A stretch of 64,000 bases of DNA, taken from the NCBI RefSeq assembly GCF_000993805.1, contig NZ_CP009961.1, positions 24,001-88,000 on the forward strand. The letters are read 5' to 3'. A program made the position numbers and the translations under genes. Below are positions 16,157-22,222 of this stretch, in pieces; position 1 is the stretch's first letter; each line of letters opens with the position of its first letter. The notes under the pieces were generated by a model. That model searched no databases and was not told the origin of the DNA. It was given only the letters and a program-made list of their open reading frames with translations. The stretch comes from Thermofilum uzonense. GTDB lineage: Archaea > Thermoproteota > Thermoprotei > Thermofilales > Thermofilaceae.

Positions 16157-17362
16157 ATGCCTAGACTATCTTCAAGAACTCAAGCGATTGTTGGCTCTCC
16201 TATTCGAAGAATTGCAACCTTACTCGATGAGGCTCGACGAAAAGGAGATATTATTAGCTTCGGAGGAGGGGCTCCCAGTCTTCCACCACCTCAAGAAGTA
16301 GTAGATTACCTAGCAGATTTTCTCAGGAAAGCCCCCCAGAAAACAGTTGCTTACGGTGCCACGAGAGGAATGATAGAGCTAAGAGAATTAATTGCCGAGG
16401 ATCTTAAGAAATATTGGAACGTGTCATATGATCCTAAAGAAGAGATAATGATTGTCAACGGAGGTACTGAGGGCATTTACCTCGCCCTGGGTGCCATACT
16501 TGAGCCGGGAGACGAGGTCGTCTTAATTGATCCCACTTATGTCGGATACGCTGAACCCGTTCGGCTTCTTGGAGGCAGGGTTCGTTATGTGCCTGTTAAA
16601 GTCGAGGAAGACTATCAGCCTAATATAGAGGATGTTAAGAAGGTTGTATCTCCTTTGACTAAAGCCTTCGTACTTTTGTCTCCAGACAACCCTACGGGAC
16701 GGATTGTTACAGAGGAGTTTGTCCGTGATCTCGTCAAATTGGCCCGAGAATATGATTTCTGGATAATCTTTGATGCCGTCTACAAACACATTAGTTATGG
16801 ACGTCCGACTCCCTGGGTGGACGCCTTTCCAGGAGCTAGGGAGAGGACAATAACAATCAACAGTTTCAGCAAAGAGGCCTCTATACCGGGTTTCCGGCTA
16901 GGATACGTGACGGGACCAGCGGAGGTTATAGAAAGTATGGAGAAAATTAAACAATATGTCTCGCTTGCTCCGGACACGCCTGGACAAATAGCTATGATCA
17001 AATTCTATGAGAGCGGAATAAAGGAACGATACCTGAACGAGATAGTCATCCCCACTTACCGGAAAAGGAGAGATCTAATGTATAAGCTTATAAAGGAATA
17101 CCTACCAGAAGCAAGAACCACTCTCCCCGAGGGTGCATTTTACTTCTTCGTGGACATGCGTAGATATCTCGAAGCGATGGGAAGAGACGACGAGGAGTTC
17201 TCGAACAGACTCCTTTACCGGAAAAGTGTCGTTGTTATACCGGGTAAATATTTCGGCGAAATGGGTTTGGGACACGTAAGAATGACTTTTGTAAGCGAAC
17301 CCGAAGAAAGAATAGAGGAGGGTATGAAGAGGATAAGTGCTTATATTTCCAGCTATCTCTAA
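16157..17362 (+). CDS. PLP-dependent aminotransferase, class I/II
   Basis: A 401-residue fold-type I aminotransferase. It shows ISFGGGAPSLPPPQEV, YGATRGMIELRELIA, NGGTEGIYLALGAILEPGDEVVLIDPTY, SPDNPTGR, IIFDAVYKHISYG and the PLP lysine in INSFSKEASIPGFRLGYV, with the carboxylate-binding arginine in GHVRMTF near the end. This set resembles the archaeal LysN/aromatic/2-aminoadipate aminotransferase group, but substrate cannot be read from sequence. A GGGAGG lies 10 bases before the ATG. Its 3' end overlaps the convergent roadblock gene by 4 bases. Confidence 0.9.
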   Translation: MPRLSSRTQAIVGSPIRRIATLLDEARRKGDIISFGGGAPSLPPPQEVVDYLADFLRKAPQKTVAYGATRGMIELRELIAEDLKKYWNVSYDPKEEIMIVNGGTEGIYLALGAILEPGDEVVLIDPTYVGYAEPVRLLGGRVRYVPVKVEEDYQPNIEDVKKVVSPLTKAFVLLSPDNPTGRIVTEEFVRDLVKLAREYDFWIIFDAVYKHISYGRPTPWVDAFPGARERTITINSFSKEASIPGFRLGYVTGPAEVIESMEKIKQYVSLAPDTPGQIAMIKFYESGIKERYLNEIVIPTYRKRRDLMYKLIKEYLPEARTTLPEGAFYFFVDMRRYLEAMGRDDEEFSNRLLYRKSVVVIPGKYFGEMGLGHVRMTFVSEPEERIEEGMKRISAYISSYL

Positions 17363-17736
17363 GGCGTTATCCTAGACTCTAATATTTTCTTTTTTATGTC
17401 TCTCAAGGTATAAAGCAGTACACCAAGCCTTGTATCCTTACTGAACAGTACAGCCATATAGCCTATATCGCCTAGCTTAATGTAAATTATTCCAGACCCG
17501 TCAGGAGCGTTTACAGTAATCCAGTCAGCCTCGCCTTTACCCAATTCTGTGCTAGCCCTATTTCCAACCTCTGAAAGTACGGCTGTTAAAGCAGCAACCT
17601 TTTCTTCTAAATCCTTGTCAGTGATACTGCTAACAAGTGGAAGTCCGTCACTAGTTGCGACTACGAAGCCTTCAAAGCCAGCTACCTTTGTTACGGGCTC
17701 TATGAGACGTCTCAAAGCCTCTAGATTCAGACTCAT
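17359..17736 (-). CDS. Roadblock/LC7-domain protein
   Basis: A 125-residue single-domain roadblock protein, the fold used as GTPase partner in MglB and in eukaryotic Ragulator subunits. The pattern LIEPVTKVAGFEGFVVATSDGLPLVSS, the central helix EEKVAALTAVLSEVGNRASTELG, then DWITVNAPDGSGIIYIKLGDIGYMAVLFSK and the C-terminal helix is typical. A TATA-like ATATATTTTAG about 35 bases upstream suggests its own promoter. It is separated by 160 bases from the small GTPase gene on the same strand and probably binds it; that partnership is inference from context. Confidence 0.85.
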   Translation of the reverse strand: MSLNLEALRRLIEPVTKVAGFEGFVVATSDGLPLVSSITDKDLEEKVAALTAVLSEVGNRASTELGKGEADWITVNAPDGSGIIYIKLGDIGYMAVLFSKDTRLGVLLYTLRDIKKKILESRITP

Positions 17737-17896
17737 CCTAACACCAGTTTTAATTGAGGTATCTAAAATATATTTTTAACATTTTTAATTATACCATTAA
17801 CTAGTTATTAAGATTGAAAAATCTACAAGACAGCCAATGTAAGGGTCGAAGATGGTAGTGTAAAATAGCACGCCGGTTAGTATAAGTGGTACAAGC

Positions 17897-18442
17897 CTAT
17901 TCTGCTCTATATTTAGGCTTTTGAGCTCGAATAAGTTCAACGGCGCGTTGTAGGACGCTAATTGCAGACTCTTTCTTTAACGCTACTAAAGGGACAACGA
18001 TGTCGTTATTCACTCCAAAAACCTGAGCCACGGTAGATGGCTTAATACTATTTGGGAGGTCCTGTTTGTTCACAGCTATCACGTGAGGATAATCCCCAAG
18101 ATTTTTCATGTACTCATACACCGTCCGAGAACGCATGACGTTAAGCATCGATGAACCATCCACGATAAAGATATAACCATGCATGCCAACCGCGAGTACA
18201 CGCCACATAAACTGTAGCCTTGTCTGACCAGGAGTACCAAAAACGTACACGTCTGTTCCATCCAGGTTGACTCTACAGTAATCAAAAGCTACAGTGGTAT
18301 ATTGTTTTATCTGGGATTCATACAGTGTCGACACTGGAACTTCTGTAGTCAAAACTTTACCAGAAGAAATTGTTTTCACAAACGTCGTTTTACCACTAGC
18401 GTAGGGGCCACTAACCAGTATTTTTAGGTAGTCTCTTTGCAT
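17897..18442 (-). CDS. Small Ras-like GTPase (MglA/COG2229-like)
   Basis: A 181-residue GTPase. G1 is SGPYASGKTTFVK near residue 12, the switch II motif is FGTPGQTRLQF (TPG in place of the Ras DTAG, as in MglA and COG2229 proteins), G4 is AVNKQDLPN and the G5 region is PLVALKKESAISVL. No lipidation motif or membrane segment is seen. It overlaps the second roadblock gene by 32 bases, so the two are surely co-expressed. In bacteria this GTPase class works with roadblock activators in MglA/MglB polarity control and in Streptomyces conservons. The archaeal role is unknown. Confidence 0.88.
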   Translation of the reverse strand: MQRDYLKILVSGPYASGKTTFVKTISSGKVLTTEVPVSTLYESQIKQYTTVAFDYCRVNLDGTDVYVFGTPGQTRLQFMWRVLAVGMHGYIFIVDGSSMLNVMRSRTVYEYMKNLGDYPHVIAVNKQDLPNSIKPSTVAQVFGVNNDIVVPLVALKKESAISVLQRAVELIRAQKPKYRAE

Positions 18443-18836
18443 CTACCTGTCCCACCCCTGCGATCTTTATTACTTCGTCTTCGTATTTTCTCAACACGAG
18501 GTGGATCAACCCAAGGTTGGGACGTGGAGTTGAAGACAAAGCGATGAACGAGCCGTCGATCGTCGAGATAATAACATGCTCACCGTTCTCGAATTCTACA
18601 TCAACTCTCTTTACGCGGCTACCAAATATATCTCCCAAAGCATCAAGCGAGCCGAGTGCTGCAGCTGAAGCTACAGCAAGAAACTCTGCTTGTGGTTGTT
18701 CTGAGGAAATATAGGATACTGGGATTCCGTCTCGCCAGGCGAAGACGATAGAGGATACCATATCGTGCGTTTCTTTTATTATCTTCGCAAGGACCCCTCT
18801 AAGCTCGACTTCCTTCTCGGAACTCAACTTTAACAC
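18411..18836 (-). CDS. Second roadblock/LC7-like protein
   Basis: A 141-residue protein with the roadblock plan: an N-terminal helix (EVELRGVLAKIIKETHDMVSSI), strand-turn-strand VFAWRDGIPVSYISS, a long helix AEFLAVASAAALGSLDALGDIF, then VDVEFENGEHVIISTIDGSFIALSSTPRPNLGLIHLVLRK. It differs enough from the 17359-17736 protein to be a separate paralogue, allowing a heterodimer. It overlaps the GTPase start by 32 bases and lies 9 bases after the membrane coiled-coil gene. A GTPase-activating or scaffold role is inferred. Confidence 0.75.
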   Translation of the reverse strand: MLKLSSEKEVELRGVLAKIIKETHDMVSSIVFAWRDGIPVSYISSEQPQAEFLAVASAAALGSLDALGDIFGSRVKRVDVEFENGEHVIISTIDGSFIALSSTPRPNLGLIHLVLRKYEDEVIKIAGVGQVDAKRLPKNTG

Positions 18837-18845
18837 CTCAAATAC

Positions 18846-19595
18846 TTACATTGTTTTAGCTATCACGTCTCTATAATATTTGCTTATCGTTTCCCTAATT
18901 TCTCCGATGCGATTCTCGTCCACTTCAAGAAGATTATCGACTTCTATAATACCAAAAACAGTCAAATCTTTCACCTCCCCTAGCCTAAAGAGATCGATAC
19001 GCCTGTTACCTTTAATAAGCGATGTTTTATCCATGTTTGACAGTCTCAGGATCTCTAGAAGCTTTGGTGGCTCCTCACTGCACTGGCCGTATTGTTTCAC
19101 TATATACCCTTGTGATGTTATTATTCCTGCATAACGTACCTCAGGAAAGTAGAGAGCGATTTCTCCAATGTCTTTAAGGGCCGCTACCTCTTTGAGAGTT
19201 TCACGAGTAGGCTTCGGATAAACGCCTGTGCGAACAGCCTCGGCAGGCCTCCTCCTCTCCAGGGTTAGCATTCTACCCTCTAAGCTTGTAATCTTGGCTT
19301 CTAAACGCAGGGTGTTATCTTGAATCATCTTCAAAGAGTTTCTTAACTCCTCGATACTGGCTGACAGGCTCTGCTGGGCAGATTCAATGGTATTAATTTT
19401 TTCCCTAGTAGTACTAAGACTCTCTGTCTGAGGAGGCTTTAGCAAATCTCTCCTAAACACATGTAGAAAATACATGAAGGCTATCAGCACTCCAAGGGAT
19501 ATTCCAAGCGCTAAAAACGCCAGGAAGACAAGGGGGGTTATAATATCAACAGCTGATAACTGTGCTAATGTGTTTGTCAAAGTATAATAAAACAT
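18846..19595 (-). CDS. Membrane-anchored coiled-coil protein with C-terminal roadblock-like domain
   Basis: A 249-residue protein. Residues about 15-47 form one transmembrane anchor (DIITPLVFLAFLALGISLGV onward), residues about 60-112 are a strong coiled coil with heptads (INTIESAQQSLSASIEELRNSLKMIQ and onward), and residues about 135-249 look like a third roadblock unit (EIALYFPEVRYAGIITSQGYIVKQYG...). This arrangement would tether a roadblock domain to the membrane and present it to the cytoplasmic GTPase. A TATA-like TTTTTATATTGG about 35 bases upstream suggests a promoter. The domain call at the C-terminus is by pattern, not by alignment. Confidence 0.6.
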   Translation of the reverse strand: MFYYTLTNTLAQLSAVDIITPLVFLAFLALGISLGVLIAFMYFLHVFRRDLLKPPQTESLSTTREKINTIESAQQSLSASIEELRNSLKMIQDNTLRLEAKITSLEGRMLTLERRRPAEAVRTGVYPKPTRETLKEVAALKDIGEIALYFPEVRYAGIITSQGYIVKQYGQCSEEPPKLLEILRLSNMDKTSLIKGNRRIDLFRLGEVKDLTVFGIIEVDNLLEVDENRIGEIRETISKYYRDVIAKTM

Positions 19596-19646
19596 GTCTG
19601 CTCTAATTCAAGTCTCCATTGCACACCAATATAAAAATATTCGATA

Positions 19647-20846
19647 CTATCCGTCGCTCATTGCTGACCTGAGTATTCTAGCCACCTCCTCCGGAGCTAT
19701 ACGGGCAACCCTTACTGAATCGAGCACCTCTATGCCTCCTATTTTTTCAAAGGGCACGAAATCTATAAACAGGTGAAAGAATGAGTTATAGCCAAATGGG
19801 TTACTATAAATTAAAACATACCTATCATGTGCTACCCCAGCCTTGTCCATGCCCCTAGATATCCTAATTAGTGTTTCAGCAAGACCCGTAATTTCAATTC
19901 TATCTAGCTCTGTGATGCGCTCTACGTGTCTCTTAGGAGCAATTCTCACGTGAAAGTTTCTCCGAGGAGCAGATGTAGCCCACGAAATCCAAGTATTATT
20001 TTCGAAGATTATTCTGTTATCGTGTCTCGAAGTGCATATGTGGCACTTCCCCTTCATCGTATCAAAAGCCTGTAATACGTTCTCCATGTATGCTCCATGA
20101 CCATCTTGGTTCAGGTCGATGTATGTTTGCGCGTGGAGACGTGGCTGTGTACCACCTGCCAGGGATCCAATGTTGAAGAACACGTATGTGGGTATTAAAG
20201 AAAAACCCCTTTTTCGAGCATCGTCCACACCAGTTTTGATAGCTTCAATTAGAGAGAGGAACAACCATGTTAGTGATTCAACGCTGGCCTCACTGAATGT
20301 CTCATAGTACTTAGATACAGGGAAAGTGACAAGATTTATACCATGGGCGATTCGGGTATACTCGTCTTCAATTCGCATCCTAAGAGTTCTCTCTAGTTCG
20401 CTATCAATAACTCTAACCATAGCAGGGTATCTGTTAACAATTGTAGCGGCATATGCATCTTTAATCTCGTTCATAACTGGTTCAGTACTGAATACTCCAT
20501 CAAATCGATTAGCATCAACAGTTACAAATATTGCGTAGTCTCTCCCTTCGATGATTTCTCTAAAGACATCACTGGTGCTACCTTCTCTTCTTTCTTCTCC
20601 ACCCGGTCTAGATCCCCTTATTGGACTAATATACGAGAAATGACCCTTCCATTTACCTATAGGTACAAGTCTCCCAGAAGCATCTTGAAGCATTATTGGC
20701 GCGGCAGATAACGGGTCCCATTTTTTTCGAGGGATGAGGTGGATCTTGTCCTCTGAGAAGTTGTACCGAGAAATCACTCCCCAATGCATGAAAGGTATTT
20801 CCTCCAACCTCATGTAGGCTTTGACACCTTGCGACAACTTTTTCAC
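19647..20846 (-). CDS. GalT/HIT-superfamily nucleotidyltransferase-like protein
   Basis: A 399-residue protein resembling galactose-1-phosphate uridylyltransferase. The segment FNIGSLAGGTQPRLHAQTYID aligns with the GalT active site, where the family HPHxQ appears as RLHAQ, keeping the nucleophilic histidine and glutamine but replacing the first histidine by arginine. A CHIC pair near residue 271 and histidines in FHVRIAPKRHVERIT may form the structural metal site. Leloir genes are not nearby. It overlaps the upstream membrane-protein gene by 4 bases, and the GTPase block follows, so it may serve envelope sugar or nucleotide metabolism. Substrate is unknown. Confidence 0.6.
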   Translation of the reverse strand: MKKLSQGVKAYMRLEEIPFMHWGVISRYNFSEDKIHLIPRKKWDPLSAAPIMLQDASGRLVPIGKWKGHFSYISPIRGSRPGGEERREGSTSDVFREIIEGRDYAIFVTVDANRFDGVFSTEPVMNEIKDAYAATIVNRYPAMVRVIDSELERTLRMRIEDEYTRIAHGINLVTFPVSKYYETFSEASVESLTWLFLSLIEAIKTGVDDARKRGFSLIPTYVFFNIGSLAGGTQPRLHAQTYIDLNQDGHGAYMENVLQAFDTMKGKCHICTSRHDNRIIFENNTWISWATSAPRRNFHVRIAPKRHVERITELDRIEITGLAETLIRISRGMDKAGVAHDRYVLIYSNPFGYNSFFHLFIDFVPFEKIGGIEVLDSVRVARIAPEEVARILRSAMSDG

Positions 20847-22222
20847 CGCGTAAAGCCTATAACCTCAAAATCCATAAAAACTTGCTCAAGAGTCTTGATA
20901 TGATCTTCGTTTAATTCTGGGACTGCACGTCTAAATGTTGAGTCAAAGGCCTTCCGAGCCGAAGCTCCTTGTCTAATTTTCTCATCAATCGTTCTGCCTA
21001 ATCGAAGGAGAGTTGTCCTGCTGAGACGTGTTAGAATTTTACGGTAAGGTAATGATAGCTTCTCAAGTGTTTCTATATCGAAACCTGTTATCTTTGATAG
21101 TATCGCTAGTGCTGATGCTATATCTATAACCCTTATGTACACTATTAGAGTATCGCTTGGATTAAGGGATCGGAGTCCATCCAAACCTAACCTGTGGTAT
21201 AAGAGAATCTTTGCTTTACACTTTCTTCCTAGCATTAAATATCGGAGGAACGACTCTTCCTCGTCATATGTTAAACCCAGTATTACTATCTTCTTATTTG
21301 GATTCGACTCATTGCATAAGAGGATAATCTGAGAAATTATTTCGTTCAAATCAGAGAATATTATCTGTAAGTCATCTAGTTCGCGCCTACTTCTGTTTTC
21401 TCTGAGAAAGCCTCTTTTTAGTTTAAAAAATAAAGAAGGAATTTTAAAGCTTATCCTGTCAAGATAGTATGCCGAGGTCGTTGTACTGAGGGAGGCTAGA
21501 ATAGCGAGAAGATCACGCTGGGTAATACTTACATTTGCGAGGATGGGTATTAGTATCAGTAAAAGTTGTGGCATCACAATTTTTATGAGTCTAGGCTCCT
21601 CCGACAAAGAGGACACTATCATACTCAGAACAAATACAAAGAACTCCACCAAGAATACTATGTTGGACCAGAAGAGGTTAACAAGGCTAGAATAAAATGA
21701 AACCGCGTCTACGATTTCCCCCCTGCTGCTCCTAGGGAACCCGCCGGGGAAAACCAAAGGCGGGCTCCAAAAAATGGATGATCTAACGAAAAGTAAAGAC
21801 ATAACAGTCAGGTTGATGAGAAAAATAGCAGCCGAGAAAAACGACTCATGAACCTTTTCCTTAGATGACAAGTAATACAAGAGCCCTAATACAACTCCCA
21901 TACTCCAAGGAAATAGAATAACAATGGGTGGAAACATTAGGAGGGCAAGCGCACTCCTCCAATCGTGCACGTTTTTTACGAGGTACAGGAGCATAAAGGG
22001 GAGCACAGCCAAGAGAAGAAAGAGTTTACTGGATCTGTAGAGTTCGAGAAAAAACACTAAGAGGAATGCCGGAAGCGCTGAGGCCGGATTAACGACACTA
22101 GCTAGCAACGGAATAATCCACAAATAGCTTTCACCCATTATCGATGGAAAAAGGTTCGCGTAAGCAAAAATAGTGACCGCAACACTAGAGAGGGCCAGGA
22201 GTCGTTGTTTTATTGCAGCCAC
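20843..22222 (-). CDS. Polytopic membrane protein with soluble C-terminal domain
   Basis: A 459-residue unrecognised protein. About the first 270 residues hold seven to nine hydrophobic segments (for example LFLLLAVLPFMLLYLV and LIKIVMPQLLLILIPILANV). The remaining 190 are soluble: an alpha/beta part with KKIVILGLTYDEEESFLRYLM and SDTLIVYIRVIDIASALAIL, then a helical bundle rich in arginine. This order resembles a P-loop domain plus lid that has lost its Walker A motif, but that is speculation. The start is GTG at 22222. It is the first gene of the minus-strand block ending in the GTPase genes. Confidence 0.55.
   Translation of the reverse strand: MAAIKQRLLALSSVAVTIFAYANLFPSIMGESYLWIIPLLASVVNPASALPAFLLVFFLELYRSSKLFLLLAVLPFMLLYLVKNVHDWRSALALLMFPPIVILFPWSMGVVLGLLYYLSSKEKVHESFFSAAIFLINLTVMSLLFVRSSIFWSPPLVFPGGFPRSSRGEIVDAVSFYSSLVNLFWSNIVFLVEFFVFVLSMIVSSLSEEPRLIKIVMPQLLLILIPILANVSITQRDLLAILASLSTTTSAYYLDRISFKIPSLFFKLKRGFLRENRSRRELDDLQIIFSDLNEIISQIILLCNESNPNKKIVILGLTYDEEESFLRYLMLGRKCKAKILLYHRLGLDGLRSLNPSDTLIVYIRVIDIASALAILSKITGFDIETLEKLSLPYRKILTRLSRTTLLRLGRTIDEKIRQGASARKAFDSTFRRAVPELNEDHIKTLEQVFMDFEVIGFTR

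Follow-up and report, generated by a model that had tools for sequence, protein, structure and literature searches.

Switches built from small GTPases and roadblock proteins set polarity in bacteria and work on internal membranes in eukaryotes; Ragulator consists of two roadblock heterodimers wrapped by the lipid-anchored p18, and binds the Rag GTPases. To our knowledge, archaeal switches of this type have hardly been described outside the Asgard group. The coupling of GTPase and roadblock protein as such is long known (PMC4316618), roadblock genes are known in archaeal pilus loci (PMC4858521), and Asgard roadblock proteins have already been described, small GTPase genes of Asgard MK-D1 being generally not in operons with roadblock genes (PMC10933270). 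The locus presented here is a row of six genes, designated M, H, C, R2, G and R1, at positions 17359-22222 (minus strand) of a 64,000-nucleotide stretch, hereafter the window, from the complete 1.61-Mb genome of the hyperthermophilic archaeon Thermofilum uzonense (contig NZ_CP009961.1, positions 24,001 to 88,000). On balance, the cluster probably represents a membrane-tethered roadblock platform regulating an MglA-like GTPase, joined to an older unit of an AAA+ protein and a GalT-like protein in which the motor is dead.

All six open reading frames (ORFs) were verified at their coordinates on the minus strand. M (20843-22222, 459 aa) is a membrane protein and, as argued below, a reduced form of a membrane-anchored Cdc48-type AAA+ ATPase. 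It is followed by H (19647-20846, 399 aa), a GalT-like protein of branch III of the HIT superfamily; C (18846-19595, 249 aa), the membrane tether; R2 (18411-18836, 141 aa), the second free roadblock protein; G (17897-18442, 181 aa), an MglA/CvnD-like small GTPase; and R1 (17359-17736, 125 aa), a free roadblock/LC7 protein. The overlaps are 4 bases for M and H and 32 bases for R2 and G; the gaps are 51 bases from the stop of H to the start of C, 9 bases between C and R2, and 160 bases between G and R1. An earlier sequence-only reading of the window had placed these parts on one strand, with a small GTPase of the MglA type carrying TPGQ and a 4-base overlap between the genes of a polytopic and a GalT-like protein, all of which was borne out.

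The tether C comprises a transmembrane (TM) helix, a coiled coil and a roadblock domain, all encoded on the minus strand. The TM helix (residues 22-40, 19476..19532, hydropathy 2.76) lies inside an AlphaFold (AF2) helix of residues 16-52, and the coiled coil (residues 57-115, 19251..19427), which also gave coiled-coil family matches, corresponds to the next helix of the model. The roadblock domain (residues 143-249, 18849..19169) has the topology a-bb-a-bbb-a. Mean predicted local distance difference test (pLDDT) score of the model was 78, and mostly 79-92 over the last 110 residues. Foldseek returned 49 matches at E≤0.001, all of them roadblock proteins or roadblock-bearing Rag-like GTPases, and the best for the domain was MglB (6izw_B, E-value 2.6e-5), with LAMTOR/MP1-p14, LAMTOR2, Asgard and Streptomyces roadblocks also present. 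When every ORF of the collected loci was searched with a profile built from only this domain (loci of relatives are labelled L; families, genera and genomes f, g and G0xx, respectively), the profile retrieved outside its own family R1-type roadblocks only, from an E-value of 2.6e-5 down. Fold and domain profile together confirm that C ends in a true roadblock domain. A membrane-anchored coiled-coil protein with a roadblock-like end was what the sequence-only reading had seen; structure prediction gave this domain the roadblock fold and not the unrelated one that would have spoken against that reading, and the search that it had proposed for 18846-19595 against roadblock families succeeded with our own profile and failed in Pfam, where only the coiled coil of C was found and Robl_LC7 was not recognised. 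Because two arginines follow the TM helix, as part of a basic RRDLLK stretch, the coiled coil and the roadblock domain probably face the cytoplasm. NCBIfam matches of C (IcmG/DotF, MakB, SMC) were discarded as coiled-coil artefacts. Outside 11 genomes, what the C profile matched in the class was mostly coiled-coil noise confined to about profile positions 8-155, and these matches were left uncounted.

G was recognised by Pfam as an ATP_bind_1/Arf-type GTPase (E-values 5.5e-12 and 1.4e-10). Its motifs, i.e. G1 GPYASGKT, a TTVAFDY switch, G3 FGTPGQ without the usual Asp of DxxG, and G4 NKQD, are invariant or nearly so among 10 orthologues. MglA was the best solved relative (3t12, E-value 9.4e-11) and Arfs came next (from 4e-9), a ranking that has a narrow E-value margin and comes from profile comparison without a tree; the alignment register against MglA switch I is ambiguous where an intrinsic Arg finger would sit. 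The MglA family has been delimited as small single-domain GTPases of 150-240 aa with an MglB/roadblock homologue encoded within four genes (PMC4316618), and the single-domain, 181 aa long G, with R2 and R1 adjacent, belongs within these bounds. G is 73% identical to the GTPase of Thermofilum sp. NZ13 and is the sole GTPase of its type in the window genome. No membrane anchor of its own was seen on G.

Concerning the two separate roadblock proteins of the sequence-only reading, the assignment held for R1, which scored above the Pfam cut-off for Robl_LC7 (E-value 2.9e-9, 37 bits against a cut-off of 23). R2 was a weak match that scored below it (E-value 1e-3, 19.2 bits), and its f5 orthologue (L043) scored above it (E-value 1.2e-8, 35 bits). 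These two are the only Pfam-detectable roadblocks of the window genome. The closest solved chains to R1 were the Asgard roadblocks 7f8m (E-value 5.9e-13) and 9jue (5.3e-10), and CvnB5 (3leq) appeared later in the list. The R1 ATG is preceded, at a distance of about 40 bases, by a TATA-like AAAAATATATTTTA, and R1 is probably transcribed separately from its own promoter. Other arrangements of roadblock genes were encountered in relatives. Family f4 encodes a third roadblock-like protein (R3) of 148-149 aa between R1 and G (L041:957-1403, L042:8234-8683), in a row R2-R1-R3-G-C. In genera g3 and g7 (L051:1661-3329, L055:10998-12684), an R1-type roadblock gene has a true Ras-type GTPase gene as its partner (Pfam Ras, E-value 1.3e-41). 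The pair lies near a separate G gene, which is accompanied by an R2 of its own and by a small TM protein that may be a tether without the coiled coil.

Among described systems a close parallel is MglA/MglB of Myxococcus xanthus and Thermus, where a small GTPase with a PGQ-type G3 is likewise encoded in the neighbourhood of its roadblock partner. Of the solved structures, MglA matched G best, and by fold MglB matched the domain of C best. The system differs in that MglA has one roadblock partner, whereas the present GTPase has several, one of them tethered by a TM helix and a coiled coil; furthermore, the present locus has no RomR/RomX or Frz-type gene and includes a linked pseudo-AAA+ membrane protein. 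The Streptomyces conservon (CvnA-D) is alike in having a GTPase, a roadblock protein and a membrane component, and the match of R1 to CvnB5 would suit an assignment of the module as a conservon with a histidine-kinase-type sensor, CvnB, CvnC and CvnD. This is hardly credible, as neither a histidine kinase nor a CvnC-type gene was found in the cluster by the Pfam scan, M is a pseudo-AAA+ protein and not a kinase, and the membrane component C bears a roadblock domain of its own; membership was rejected as contradicted by gene content. The parallel drawn earlier to both systems thus stands for MglA/MglB and for the GTPase-roadblock half of the conservon, and fails for its kinase and CvnC.

Resemblance to Ragulator/LAMTOR-Rag lies in a putative membrane-anchored set of several roadblock domains that would keep a soluble GTPase at a membrane, and in the match of the C domain to the LAMTOR2/MP1-p14 fold. 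In Ragulator, however, the anchor is the lipidated wrapper p18, while in C it is fused to the roadblock domain through the coiled coil, and G is MglA-like, lacking in Pfam the C-terminal roadblock of the Rag GTPases. With no p18-like gene found in the cluster, and no Rag-type C-terminal roadblock on G, membership of the Ragulator system was rejected. As for the Asgard archaea, the solved sequences closest to R1 are theirs, but the GTPase and roadblock genes of the present locus share one gene row, unlike those of MK-D1.

Gene order was highly conserved. The order and strand of M-(H)-C-R2-G were kept in 11 Thermofilaceae genomes, which speaks against a chance arrangement and is in agreement with the synteny that the sequence-only reading had proposed to look for. 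In genus g6, R1 and the DUF99-mtnA genes are relocated, R1 having moved to the far side of M, and in g4 the aminotransferase gene is distant, yet M-H-C-R2-G is unchanged; since the flanking genes move, the order of the core is maintained against rearrangement. Outside Thermofilaceae, C-R2-G is contiguous in family f5 (L043, L045), while f4 (L041, L042) has R2, R1, the third roadblock-like gene and then G and C, f11 (L142) has a C-like gene adjoining R2, and f13 (L135, L136, L138 and others) a roadblock-like gene immediately upstream of G. Because C, R2 and G also cluster in two other families, C-R2-G was taken as the minimal conserved unit. In genome G035, where the search for a G-type GTPase returned none, the R2-C pair is followed by a gene for a KaiC-like ATPase (L142:6130-8109).

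M returned no family match in Pfam. It consists of a membrane domain with several hydrophobic helices (residues 2-256, 21455..22219, minus strand), delimited by AF2 and by the match of the M profile to the membrane domain of L119, and a pseudo-AAA+ domain (approximately residues 285-459, 20846..21370, minus strand), recognised by profile matches to Cdc48-like ATPases and by Foldseek, in which the Walker A and Walker B motifs are both missing. The description of M as a polytopic protein was therefore right as to the membrane helices and incomplete, the C-terminal third being a degenerate AAA+ domain. The origin of M is apparent from relatives. Families f4 and f7 have, immediately before H, a gene for a protein of 837-880 aa that combines a membrane domain with two AAA domains (Pfam AAA, E-values 1.1e-86 to 1.2e-53, plus AAA_lid_3), and these tandem-AAA membrane proteins are directly followed by H in L118 (10076-12718), L119 (6193-8706), L120 (6075-8699) and L121 (642-3266). 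An M profile built without L040 matched L119 in the membrane domain (E-value 3.5e-12) and in both AAA modules (1e-4 and 4.7e-6), and an 11-row M profile matched Cdc48-like ATPases in the majority of the order's genomes. The gene order of L119, mtnA-DUF99-XaaPro(-)-AAA(+)-H(+), agrees exactly with that of Thermofilaceae, with the AAA protein at the position of M, and there is no C-R2-G between H and the aminotransferase gene.

These proteins form a series of decay, from two intact AAA domains (L118, L120, L121) through a second AAA domain without Walker B (L119) to one AAA domain with Walker A only (L040, Pfam AAA_14, E-value 3.2e-5), the only Thermofilaceae form retaining Walker A, and to the window and the other Thermofilaceae with neither motif. 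Intact and decayed forms were mutually exclusive over 27 genomes. Compared with membrane-anchored Cdc48/VCP-type AAA+ proteins, which in L118-L121 carry a TM domain and two AAA domains with AAA_lid_3, M has retained the membrane domain and a single AAA remnant that lacks both Walker A and Walker B. Judged from its sequence, M is a decayed descendant of such a protein and not an active member of the family.

H was closest among solved structures to GalT (6k5z, E-value 7e-13 in the sequence profile) and then to 1z84, of the GalT/ADP-glucose phosphorylase branch of HIT proteins, and Pfam recognised HIT (E-value 7.7e-5); the label GalT-like was thus right as to the fold. The catalytic His-x-Gln, CxxC and KRH are retained. 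In the active-site motif PRLHAQ (20127..20144, minus strand), the first His of HPH is replaced by Arg, and PRLH[AS]Q is invariant in 12 H proteins in place of the HPH-type motif of GalTs. H as a standard GalT was ruled out by this altered motif and by an NCBIfam GalT score of 20 bits, far below the cut-off of 448. H was present in 10 of the 398 sampled genomes of the phylum, all in one order. In a set of 27 genomes of the order, each of the 12 that have H carries M or the intact AAA protein as well (found in 16), a co-occurrence with P 1e-4 by simple counting, which is inflated by relatedness. In f4 and f7, H immediately follows the intact membrane AAA+ protein and is away from any G gene. It is missing from four genomes that keep the rest of the row (G023, G024, G025, G026); G025 is only 81% complete, and M and C are nonetheless adjacent there without H.

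By its distribution and gene order, H goes with M or the AAA ancestor of M and does not follow the GTPase, so that a switch over envelope sugars is without support. Such a switch, acting on sugar activation through H, had been put forward in the sequence-only reading, and the GalT fold of H, its catalytic His, Gln, CxxC and KRH and its place in the gene row are in keeping with it. Against these stand the inheritance of H with the M/AAA+ line, its absence in the four genomes and its altered HPH motif; in addition, no glycosyltransferase was found in the gene cluster, no glycosylation genes adjoin it, and most of these genomes, that of the window among them, have genes for other GalT-type proteins elsewhere. 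The proposal is accordingly regarded as very improbable.

Several results weigh against the tethered-platform explanation. Full-length C compared by hhalign profile comparison with R1 or R2 gave nothing, and because of this the roadblock homology of C rests on the fold and the domain-only profile. Foldseek of the M model (pLDDT 85) placed p97, Vps4 and katanin at the top with probability up to 0.99 but E-values of about 0.06, which are suggestive but not significant alone; the AAA assignment of M is founded on the sequence intermediates and on the orthology of the locus. The other genes can persist when H is lost, R1 can become detached from the cluster, and the link of M-H to the GTPase core probably arose once, i.e. 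as one event repeated by descent. It is quite possible, if not the reading we prefer, that the operon brings together two unrelated units solely so that they are co-expressed, C-R2-G(-R1) serving in signalling and M-H in metabolism or quality control, without physical coupling. Outside Thermofilaceae, M/AAA-H is inherited apart from C-R2-G, and the undisturbed rows of G023-G026 without H, as well as the mobility of R1, are consistent with such independence. On the other hand, the fused M-H-C-R2-G persists through local rearrangements with short or overlapping junctions, and the fusion coincides with decay of the AAA+ motor in 11/11 genomes.

In the tethered-platform explanation, C would be held in the membrane by its one helix and carry its roadblock domain on a cytoplasmic coiled-coil stalk. 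Most likely, C would dimerise with the adjacent R2 into a roadblock platform, in the manner of MglB or the LAMTOR subunits, on which the anchorless G would dock, and R1 would form a second dimer promoting GTP hydrolysis or exchange, as a GTPase-activating protein or exchange factor. M-H would be the older, separate unit of a membrane-anchored Cdc48-like AAA+ machine and a GalT-fold enzyme; when the GTPase core joined its locus in Thermofilaceae, the AAA+ part would have lost its ATPase. M would now probably act in the membrane as an inert receptor or scaffold that the switch reads or controls. Relative to the ancestor, one AAA domain of M is gone entirely and the remaining one has neither Walker motif, while the membrane domain and mostly the H partner were kept. 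A stronger version, in which the Cdc48-like motor became a GTPase-controlled receptor and GTP switching via the tethered roadblock platform replaced ATP-driven unfolding, is speculative and rather unlikely.

As for the process controlled, polarity or a surface structure would be favoured. Control of a type IV pilus-like surface structure or of cell polarity, such as MglA/MglB exert in rod-shaped bacteria, is an output compatible with the tethered platform and may tentatively be proposed: MglA is the best solved relative of G, roadblock genes occur in archaeal pilus loci (PMC4858521), and in genome G008 one C-R2-G copy (L043) lies downstream of genes (L043:2608-6281) with the prepilin-like N-termini NRRGQIKLLEAVFCVILIVVVF and NGKGQFMTLAVIIVSIIVL, which hint at a possible link of the module to such a structure. 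The prepilin reading rests on the N-termini only, without a Pfam match, and no pilus genes were seen in the window cluster or beside the cluster in the Thermofilaceae loci read. The second copy in G008 (L045) also has C-R2-G after a large ORF, which is cut by the contig end (L045:1-1857).

Beyond M, the segment 22355-24107, between M and the gene of the Xaa-Pro peptidase, holds a gene for a divergent, secreted-looking protein (weak PEGA match) and a small ORF. This segment looks like an insertion, because M directly adjoins the Xaa-Pro peptidase gene in relatives.

In the open-access portion of the literature searched, no description was found of this cluster, of a GTPase operon that encodes a TM-coiled-coil-roadblock tether, or of the decayed membrane AAA+ protein. 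The dead AAA+ motor is the unexpected element of the cluster. The Thermofilaceae cluster offers a compact, single-copy and operon-encoded archaeal switch, with a tether that was missed by domain libraries, and an evolutionary series in which an active membrane AAA+ motor can be followed down to an inert remnant. The cluster raises the testable questions of how archaea anchor anchorless GTPase switches, and whether a dead AAA+ protein can serve as the receptor of a switch. If the receptor reading is true, the cluster would be a roadblock scaffold of a non-Asgard archaeon that holds its GTPase at the membrane.

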